Below, piece by piece: positions 5,882-61,547 of a DNA stretch of 61,547 nucleotides. The stretch spans positions 1-61,547 of the forward strand of contig JACQDB010000029.1 in NCBI GenBank assembly GCA_016201275.1, in the 5' to 3' direction. The position numbers and the translations under genes are program-made. Every line of letters starts with the position of its first letter. Position 1 is the first letter of the stretch. The notes below the pieces were generated by a model that was not told the origin of the DNA, ran no database searches, and was given only the letters and a program-made list of their open reading frames with translations. The DNA is from Acidobacteriota bacterium. Lineage in GTDB: Bacteria; Acidobacteriota; Blastocatellia; UBA7656.

Positions 5882-5920
5882 CCCTGTACGGGCGACCCTG
5901 CGGTGGTCGCCCGTACAGGG
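5882..5920. repeat. GTACGGGCGACC palindrome, short form
   Basis: A perfect 16-bp inverted repeat (CCCTGTACGGGCGACC and its complement) surrounds CTGCGGT. The same sequence, including the trailing CATGGGAAAAT, recurs at 40822-40924, where an extra inverted segment is present in the middle. Confidence 0.75.
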
Positions 5921-5970
5921 CATGGGAAAATCACTCAAGTCTTGCACTTGATTTCATCCACCATCCTGAA

Positions 5971-6486
5971 CTCGACTTTGTACATTTTCAGAGGCGAACC
6001 AGTCTTGCCAATCCCCCCGATGGCAATCGGGGGATGCTTAAAGCCCAACCTACAAAACGCCGCGCAACATCTACTAATCCCCCCGATGGCAATCGGGGGA
6101 TAGTTAAAGTCCAACCTACGAAACACCGCCAACGAGAAACGAATCCCCCCGATGGAAATCGGGGGATGGTTAAAGTCCAACCTTGCACTTTGCTTGCTTG
6201 GTGTGTAGGCTGGACTTTAACCATCCCCCAACTGCCGTTGGGGGGATTCAGACGAATGGCCAAACCGCCTCGGCTCCCGTTGGGGGGATTCAGATGAATT
6301 GCCTCACTGCCTCGGCTCTCCATTGGTAGATTTTTTAGTGGCGAAGCAGCCTGATTTCATTGGCTTTTTCAACCCTTGGAATGATTGAACCTCAGCTTGT
6401 TGAGGTGAGGTTCAATCATTCCAAGCGCGCACCGCAACGTCAGCCCTTGATTAGTGTTGTTCAATCTGAAATTGTACAAAGTCGAG
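5971..6486. mobile_element. 516-bp non-autonomous element with 22-bp TIRs and a stem-loop array
   Basis: The left end CTCGACTTTGTACATTTTCA (5971 onward) recurs inverted at the right end (6465-6486) with one mismatch over 22 bp. Inside are four full stem-loops (about 6013, 6079, 6144 and 6224) and remnants. Each has a stem CCCCCGAT/ATCGGGGG or CCCCCAAC/GTTGGGGG and usually a GGCA/TGCC loop, followed by TTAAAGTCCAACCT. The array flips orientation at about 6190. Positions 6346-6486 contain a 140-bp segment with its own palindrome (CTTGGAATGATTGAAC). About 300 bp of this element recurs inverted at 61197-61500. No open frame looks real. Mobility is inference. Confidence 0.65.
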
Positions 6487-6525
6487 CTTAACGGCGGTCA
6501 CGCATACCTACGATCAGGCGATGCG

Positions 6526-37168: not shown

Positions 37169-37663
37169 GAAATCGTTTGCCCTCTCTTCTCAATCATGAT
37201 TAACGCCTATTTCAGGCTGGTCTGGCAACCCGAATCGGCTGAAGAATGCGCCATCGAGTGCAAGTAAAAGTGAGACGCCAGCACAAAGAAACTTCCTGTT
37301 CGCAGCCCTGCAAGGGCGCAATTCTATAGCCTAGCGCAGCGCGCTAGGAAAGAGCTTCACGCGGTCAACGAGCGCCCTTTCAGGGCTAGGAATGGATGGC
37401 TCGCGCCTACCCAGTCCGTTGGACTGGGCTATAGAATTGTGCCCTTTCAGGGCTGCGAACCCGCACGGGCGAAAATAGCTTGTCAAACCAATAGCCGCAA
37501 CCGAGTCTCACTTTTCATTGCACCCCTCATTAAGTGAGGCGATCCTTTACATAGAGTTGTCCATCACTCAGCCAGACTTCTAGCCAAGGTTCTGCATCAC
37601 GAAATGTCCACAGTATCAATCTACCTTTGTTACAGAGTGCGTTGCGCTCCTTGCCAAGCTGGC
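37169..37663. other. Non-coding region holding an inverted-repeat element
   Basis: The main content is the 266-bp element 37258-37523, listed separately. The remaining 37524-37663 shows nothing recognisable. Confidence 0.6.
37258..37523. mobile_element. MITE-like element with GTGCAA..GTGAGAC ends
   Basis: The left end (37258-37276) reads GTGCAAGTAAAAGTGAGAC. The right end (37505-37523) is its reverse complement with two mismatches over 19 bp. Inside are several smaller palindromes: GCCCTTTCAGGGCT-type sequences, CTAGCGC/GCGCTAG, and CCCAGTCC/GGACTGGG. A single matching end lies at 34749-34767. No open frame is convincing. Mobility is inference. Confidence 0.55.
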
Positions 37664-40482: not shown

Positions 40483-41086
40483 AAATTTCTCCAGCAATGC
40501 TATACGATGTAAGCGTCCGCAGAGGCTTGCGGAACGATGAAGAAGGAGGCCGAAACCATCGCCCGACAGCGCCCTTCCCAGCAATGCGCCAACAGTAAAT
40601 CACCAAACCTAAACGAACGCAAGCGCCTACTTAAAACTATGCGAAACCACTTCGCCTTCTTGATTCATTGGCGTTGCGGCTTGCAGAAATCGCTTTGACC
40701 CGGCAATAGCGCAAGAGGTTTGGTTGGCGGCCAAGAGACTCACATCCTTGCCAGTCACGGGCTTGCAGTTGGCTCTCGATAGATGATTCGACGGCCTAGG
40801 AATGTGGATAAAATAATCTGCAACCCTGTACGGGCGACCCTGCGGTGGTCGCCCCGCCTTGAAATTCATTAGCTTTCAAGGCGGGGCGACCACCGCAGGG
40901 TCGCCCGTACAAGGCATGGGAAAATTACTCACGTTTTGCAGGCTATATCTTCCATATTCCTAAGAAGCAAAACCCCAAGCCTGTCACCGCGAAGCACATC
41001 AGGGACACCAAGCGTAAATAGAGACGCCAGGTCTTGGGGGTTCAGGGTGTGCTTTGCGGTCAAAAACCTGATGTGATTTTCAAGCC
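40483..41086. repeat. Non-coding region with a 37-bp perfect inverted repeat and a second long hairpin
   Basis: Positions 40828-40864 and 40874-40910 are exact reverse complements over 37 bp around a 9-base loop. The outer part is the GTACGGGCGACC palindrome also at 5882-5920. Positions about 40990-41070 form a second, imperfect long stem (ACCGCGAAGCACA with TGTGCTTTGCGGT, and GACACCAA with TTGGGGGT inside) just past the phasin stop codon, a possible terminator. The apparent frame 40627-40869 starts inside the inverted repeat and is not called. Confidence 0.75.
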
Positions 41087-52591: not shown

Positions 52592-52932
52592 GATCAACCA
52601 CCAAATCACTTCGCCACGAAGACCTCAAAGCCAAAGCTCAACTTGGTACATTTTTCAGAGGCGAACCGAGCTTGCCAATTCCACCGATGGCAAGCGGTGG
52701 ATGGTTAAAATCCAATCTACAAAACACAGCGCAACATCAACCAATCCCTCCAACGGTAGTTGGGGATGGGTAAAGCCCAACCTACAAAACGCTGCCAACG
52801 ATAAACGAATCCCACCGCTTGCCATCGGCGGGATTCAGGCGTATGCCCAAACTGTATCGGTGAAGCACTCAAGCATCTTTGTGTTCTTGATGGTCTTCGT
52901 AGTTGGGAAACGGATAGGCTTTTCAAGCCTGT
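52592..52932. repeat. Stem-loop repeat cluster C
   Basis: The cluster starts with CTCAACTTGGTACATTTTTC (52637), a degenerate copy of the element end at 5971, then CAGAGGCGAACC. Stem-loops follow at about 52681 (CCACCG/CGGTGG around a GGCA-containing loop), about 52745 (CAACGGTAGTTG, short arms) and about 52811 (CCCACCG/CGGCGGG). The stem CCACC/GGTGG has changed on both sides relative to CCCCC/GGGGG. No second terminal repeat is seen. No gene is supported. Confidence 0.7.
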
Positions 52933-61196: not shown

Positions 61197-61547
61197 CTCG
61201 ACTTTGTACAATTTCAAATTGAACAACACTAATCAAGGGCTGACGTTGCGGTTCGCGCTTGGAATGATTGCACCTCACCTCAACAAGCTGACGTTCAATC
61301 ATTCCAAGGGTTGAAATAGCCAATGAAATCAGGCTGCTGCGCTGCTGGAAAATCCAGCAACGCAGAGCCGAGGCAGTTAGGCCATTCATCTGAATCCCCC
61401 AACGGAAAGCCAAGGCGGTTTGGCAATTCGTCTGAATCCCCCCAACGGCAGTTGGGGATGCTTAAAGTCCAGCCTACATACCGCAGGCAAACAAAGTTTT
61501 TTTGCAATCCCCCCAACGGCAGTTGGGGGATAGTTAAAGTCCAGCCT
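61197..61547. mobile_element. Second copy of the 516-bp repeat element, cut by the window edge
   Basis: CTCGACTTTGTACAATTTCA (61197) is the same terminal repeat as at 6465-6486. Positions 61197-61337 are near-identical, in inverted orientation, to 6346-6486, including the CTTGGAATGATTG palindrome. The CCCCCAACGGCAGTTGGGGG stem-loops follow at about 61440 and 61508, with the same GAGCCGAGGCAG and GTCTGAATCC spacers. The element continues past the window, so its far end is unknown. Confidence 0.7.

Follow-up and report, generated by a model that had tools for sequence, protein, structure and literature searches.

The terminal repeats and internal parts of the element

The window under study (the whole stretch of DNA that was analysed, 61,547 nt, which equals the complete contig C71 of an Acidobacteriota genome) harbors at positions 5971-6486 a 516-bp unit that is delimited by two inverted arms of 22 nt (5971-5992 and 6465-6486; 95% complementary, 1 mismatch) separated by a 472-nt spacer, as had been described in a first-pass annotation. 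A 19-nt end consensus was matched four times in the window at ≤3 mismatches (shuffled sequences: mean 0.05, maximum 1), and the inverted ends of the element are not due to chance. The left terminal inverted repeat (CTCGACTTTGTACATTTTCAGA; 5971-5992, + strand) begins with the same 14 bases as the ends of IS701-family elements, and the right one (CTCGACTTTGTACAATTTCAGA; 6465-6486, - strand) is identical in 21 of 22 positions to an IS701-type end from another genome of the class (L023 vs L196 in G067). The pentanucleotides that border them, CTGAA on the left (5966-5970, +) and CTTAA on the right (6487-6491, +), constitute an imperfect target-site duplication (1 mismatch), the consensus over 27 exact duplications of the genome being CTNAG.

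Between the two ends, the element (architecture string LFFFrddLc<>) carries the array of stem-loops that had been noticed from the letters alone: three direct hairpin units (F; 6010-6207, +; repeat family D1) of approximately 66 bp each, starting at 6010, 6076 and 6142 and having TTAAAG(C/T)CCAACCT as their 3' end; an inverted unit (r; 6205-6249, -; inverted repeats I2 and I3), which is composed of GTAGGCTGGACTTTAACC and a stem and falls in a region matched class-wide; and two 42-bp half-units (d; 6232-6315, +; repeat family D2), the first of which overlaps the r unit. These are followed by a constant 157-bp core (6330-6486, +), recognised through the comparison of 47 elements, in which an internal left-end-like copy and a long hairpin (6375-6425, +; 23-bp arms, 5-nt loop; inverted repeat I4) precede the right end. 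When folded as single-stranded DNA, the element reaches -126.4 kcal/mol (shuffles -69.6 kcal/mol; z -12.1).

Two further copies, both already suspected in the first-pass annotation, were confirmed in the window. The one at 61197-61547 (-) comprises the right end and part of the array, matches the element at 91% over 301 bp (61197-61497), and is truncated by the contig end, since the window spans the whole contig. The other (52637-52841, +) is a degenerate left part, in which an end with 3 mismatches is succeeded by approximately 205 bp of known element sequence and the right end is not recognisable. Additionally, a second palindromic repeat (CGGGCGACC..GGTCGCCCG) is present at 5889-5913 (just to the left of the element), 40831-40855 and 40883-40907 (3 matches, 0.06 expected), and an Acido-Lenti-1 RNA was detected at 37304-37348 (-; 44.9 bits, gathering score 37).

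Genome-wide copies and IS701-type relatives

Within the genome to which the window belongs (G000; 6.84 Mb, 162 contigs), the end pattern was found at 85 + 85 places (170) at ≤2 mismatches, as compared to 1 + 1 for the reversed-pattern control. The 179 ends classed in the fetched loci of this genome (101 left, 73 right, 5 unclear) yielded 47 elements with both ends (6 of which were kept in the count without a left-right label from the classifier) and a further 67 unpaired ends, 51 of them situated ≤900 bp from a contig end. By arithmetic, these numbers suggest roughly 90-115 copies, given as a range because two halves at contig ends may represent one and the same copy. The expectation that copies would be of constant length was not borne out: the paired elements measure 268-759 bp because their arrays differ in the number of units, with which element length correlates (r 0.75).

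The expected target duplications were recovered: among the 45 elements with both flanks (the 2 with a missing flank being excluded), 27 show an exact 5-bp duplication and 35 one with ≤1 mismatch, as compared to 5.2% and 30.9%, respectively, when the flanks of different elements were cross-paired; none of the 45 has a duplication of 6 bp. The copies without an exact duplication thus number 20 of 47 (including the 2 with a missing flank). Position counts gave CTNAG as the consensus, and as all five positions are variable and both sides carry the same variant (e.g. GTTAG, CTTAT, CTTTG), we take 5 bp to be the true length. A search for empty sites, in which 27 joined flanks were compared with the fetched loci of G000, produced one spanning match (68.6%, gapped) and no clean one. 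Transposase genes are absent from the 47 paired copies and from the sequence beyond every unpaired end examined in G000; the search for an autonomous copy, covering the 16 unpaired ends with ≥900 bp of inner sequence and the 51 near contig ends, likewise revealed no transposase of the element. Short (268-759 bp), bounded by terminal inverted repeats, devoid of a transposase and flanked by target-site duplications, the copies have the attributes of miniature inverted-repeat transposable elements (MITEs). The initial impression of a mobile unit that is non-autonomous, bears hairpins and differs from a simple MITE is therefore upheld by 47 paired, transposase-free copies, whose hairpin array is a separate module.

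Insertions of the element cluster beside two other repeats: a CCACCATCC-like one adjoins 8 of the 47 elements of G000 and a GCGACACCCT-like one adjoins 6 (control rates of 0.1% and 0.7% per 15-mer, respectively). The sequence after the end in one copy (L129) was interpreted by eye as an IS1-like insertion.

Autonomous relatives with these ends were encountered outside the genome of the window. The end was found at ≤1 mismatch in 4 of 161 class genomes: in G067 it follows CTAAG and is adjoined by a DDE_5 (PF13546) transposase gene that contains a frameshift and runs off the contig (150.7 on NF049999, below the cut-off of 170 because truncated), and in G064 it is bordered by CTTAG. A single end match in G011, beside IS630- and IS4-like genes, was dropped since a second end was not found, and another in G101 (L158), with no similar end nearby, was attributed to chance. 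With a G067 piece as query, matches were obtained in 13 of 162 class genomes, corresponding to approximately 15 distinct loci; both ends were identified in 7 (no end pair in the remaining 8), of which 4 have an exact 5-bp repeat (CTAAG, CTCAG, CTTAG and CTTAG, one being the copy of the window's own genome), one a repeat with one mismatch, and two lie at contig starts and are not judgeable. That own-genome copy, on contig C135, is an intact IS701 sister element of 1330 bp with ends CTCGACTTTATCCA (CTCGACTTTATCCAT), CTTAG on both sides and a 389-aa transposase (NF049999 IS701, 289.6 bits, cut-off 170) that is 44-50% identical to the G067 pieces. Its end is of the ATCCA type, as compared to the GTACA type of the MITE, and differs from the latter by 2 mismatches in 14 while sharing the first 9 bases. 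IS701-type elements with the same ends as the MITE exist in other genomes, whereas the genome of the window offers only this sister end, and no transposase with a GTACA-type end was found in its assembly.

More widely, the IS-type end CTCGACTTTGTACAATTTT was found as an exact 19-mer in at least 105 stretches of genome contigs (approximately 2 expected by arithmetic). The 80 matches listed belong mostly to Chlamydiae MAGs and to Dictyobacter/Ktedonobacter (two to Pyrinomonadaceae); they include 42 end pairs, 23 of which have a repeat of ≥5 bp (MITEs of 158 bp and 95 bp among them), and transposase matches adjoin the ends in 4 of these 80 loci. A protein search of nine further genomes gave matches in 5 (approximately 14 distinct loci, both ends in 4), and three of the four two-ended loci have an exact repeat, namely CTGAG and CTGTG in Ktedonobacteria copies with CTCGACTTTGTACA ends and CTTAG in one with CTTGACTTTGTACA. 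Outside the ends, the MITE showed no resemblance to the IS elements (four MITE copies compared; the matches at L163 represent the MITE copy located there). Sharing its ends, target and 5-bp duplication with these elements, the window element is, on sequence grounds, an IS701-type MITE and a real transposon.

Two other loci deserve mention. At L163 (contig C22 of G000), a second, distant IS701 gene preceded by CTCGACAATGTCACA lies 300 bp beyond a MITE copy (NF033540, 168.5 bits, cut-off 150). This second DDE_5 gene of the genome was rejected as a partner, since the NF033540 model places it in another branch of IS701 and blastp detected no significant similarity. A class genome (G130, L175:921-1099) contains a MITE-sized pair of CTCGACTTTATCCATTT ends, with CTTAG beside each.

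The hairpin array and the Y1 transposase locus

The usual order of modules in the MITE copies (left end, 1-4 F units, r units, 0-3 d units, internal left-end-like copy, long hairpin, right end) is incomplete in some of them. Of the 47 elements, 39 contain the second left-end-like copy, which in 29 of these lies 157 bp from the right end; in L067 and L129 the left end runs almost straight into the hairpin, as in an array-free form. These observations point to an older MITE of approximately 170 bp, to which the array would have been added behind a duplicated left end. The tip of the long hairpin (6375-6425 in the window) occurs in two orientations (GCTTGTTGAGG / CCTCAACAAGC; e.g. L027 and L044) among the 17 of 47 copies covered by the count, and looks as if inverted within the palindrome.

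The interior of the element was searched in 162 class genomes and matched in 14 others, mostly through the hairpin unit alone. Of 20 loci fetched from these genomes, 19 contain the unit at ≤6 mismatches, often as F..r clusters; in 18 of the 19 no MITE end was present at ≤3 mismatches within 400 bp, and the remaining one has a 3-mismatch end (elsewhere, only a 4-mismatch background was seen). Judging by this distribution, the hairpin units are not the MITE's own and represent a module common to another mobile system. In G135 (L333) they flank a 275-aa ORF, whose homologue in the genome of the window (L309; 58.5% identical) lies between a single F unit and a pair of r units. Both proteins (L309 and L333, respectively) match the Y1 transposase domain (PF01797 Y1_Tnp; 133 and 124 bits, two stretches each) and the NCBIfam IS200/IS605 model (146 and 138 bits, cut-off 55), and both rank under the NCBIfam RAYT cut-off of 80 (56.9 for the L309 protein). 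The flank of the L309 gene is approximately 91% identical to the MITE arrays over 112-121 bp (linker included), whereas the arrays of three loci from other genomes match at approximately 70-74%; consequently, the MITE array and the resident Y1 locus go back to the same recent source. As units without a MITE are widespread, the capture probably went from the Y1 locus to the MITE. At its place by the unit, GTAG outnumbers every other tetranucleotide (254 in the own genome, 39 in other genomes); it lies approximately 14 nt from the stem, as compared to at the stem or within 2 nt in GTAG-type REPs, and given this distance and the RAYT scores we do not regard the units as textbook REPs.

Both Y1 genes (L309:1018-1851 on contig C80 of the own genome, and L333:42-869) encode two Y1 domains per chain. 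Alignment by eye indicates that the first domain has kept the tyrosine (QY) and lost the HUH motif (DHLR / DQFR), and that the second has kept HUH (DHTH / DHVH) and lost the tyrosine (F / W). This pattern might reflect a pseudo-dimer that arose by fusion and has a single, composite active site; the structure prediction (mean pLDDT 48.9, two sequences) is too poor to judge this reading.

Proposed origin of the element, alternatives and known systems

Taken together, the element is a DDE-type MITE bearing REP-like repeats of an HUH system; the movement and function of the element we infer. Transposition, as proposed here, would depend on an IS701-type DDE transposase supplied in trans, for which CTCGACTTTGTACA at either end would serve as the recognition site; integration into CTNAG targets would duplicate 5 bp. 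The hairpin units most likely entered the older MITE of approximately 170 bp from such a Y1 locus; the array would then have grown and shrunk via slippage or recombination, and the units would have been dispersed by the MITE's own transposition. We assign a probability of roughly 0.8 to this hybrid origin (i.e. a DDE-type MITE that is moved in trans and bears hairpin units of a Y1 locus, later expanded and spread). Most of the recognised hairpin copies of the own genome sit between IS701-type ends, and the hairpins of its relatives occur without such ends. An extension, in which the element is a composite of two unrelated transposition chemistries, with the DDE-type MITE as the main vehicle and the resident two-domain Y1 protein possibly moving or rearranging the MITE copies by an additional, single-strand pathway through the captured hairpins, is proposed here tentatively.

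The opposite history, in which the MITE itself gave rise to the units and the sequences around the Y1 gene are no more than MITE remnants, could account for the fact that 66 of the 80 listed exact unit places of the own genome (227 at ≤1 mismatch) lie within 700 bp of a recognised end, and that several of the other 14 are degenerate MITE copies with ends. We consider it very improbable, as the units are present in 14 other genomes, 18 of 19 inspected clusters have no MITE end nearby, and the F..r order with a Y1 gene in between recurs in G135. It is improbable, too, that the array is no passive cargo and owes its persistence to selection for a structural role in DNA or in a transcript (e.g. 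as an mRNA stabiliser). Such selection would agree with the strong fold of the window element and with the stems, whose pairing is kept by coordinated changes: among the distinct unit 28-mers (149 of 161 used), 88.7% of cells pair (n=149; 83.0% in shuffles) and in 102 cells both sides have changed (mean of 45 and maximum of 58 in shuffles). This shuffle ignores relatedness, however, and palindromes copied from their own arm can yield paired changes without selection. Furthermore, unit number varies freely between copies, and at the window element no Rfam family was found, terminator-like sites were not above chance (1 vs 1.3 in shuffles), and the promoter/terminator reading gave nothing.

Another question concerns the enzyme. 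The resident IS701 element of C135 might drive the MITE today, in place of a lost or unassembled cognate transposase; it is intact, with a transposase of 389 aa and CTTAG perfectly duplicated, and its target and first 9 end bases are those of the MITE. We hold this to be rather unlikely, since its end departs from that of the MITE at two of 14 positions and occurs at 9 places of the genome at ≤1 mismatch, as compared to 170 for the MITE end.

Bacterial MITEs are usually regarded as reduced copies of a single parent element; here, a MITE appears to have captured, and spread approximately 100-fold, repeats of the recognition type that belong to a transposase with an unrelated mechanism. The case would allow direct tests of hitchhiking between selfish elements, and cautions that the dispersal of hairpin clusters taken for REPs may be due to another enzyme. 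Moreover, the end CTCGACTTTGTACA, abundant in contigs of environmental Chlamydiae and Ktedonobacteria, can now be connected with an enzyme of IS701 type whose 5-bp target is CTNAG. In the literature searched (a limited collection, partly available as excerpts), no published account was found of this element or of an IS701 MITE with such cargo, and its novelty is the hairpin-array cargo.

With the IS701 family (NCBIfam NF049999; Pfam DDE_5 PF13546) the window element has in common the end CTCGACTTTRTMCA, the CTNAG target and the 5-bp duplication of the IS701-type elements described here; it differs by lacking a transposase, and only the ends are shared. As the published member ISTth8 is listed, in the portion of the source at hand, with 4-bp repeats (PMC6352166), as compared to 5 bp here and in the related elements, we refer to an IS701-type subgroup defined by the transposase model and not to canonical IS701. 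MITECca01 (~240 bp, IS982 family, reaching 169 copies; PMC9769881) and MITEAba12 (111-114 bp, ISAba12; PMC6382973) are likewise IS-derived MITEs that share ends with an IS, and target duplications are stated for the latter; the available parts of both accounts mention no hairpin array. BrickBuilt, a minisatellite-carrying MITE of Porphyromonas gingivalis, also has an internal tandem array, which, according to the available text, consists of 23-nt repeats without spacers (PMC4596501), whereas the units described here are hairpins of approximately 66 bp that occur in two orientations and also at a Y1 transposase locus. The GTAG-tagged REPs, REPtrons and REPINs, as far as the accessible sections describe them (PMC3733652), resemble our units in being tagged palindromes with alternative complementary stem residues that form inverted clusters and flank a Y1 transposase gene; they differ in that here some 14 nt separate GTAG from the stem, the transposase is a two-domain Y1 protein scoring below the RAYT cut-off, and most copies reside inside a DDE-type MITE.
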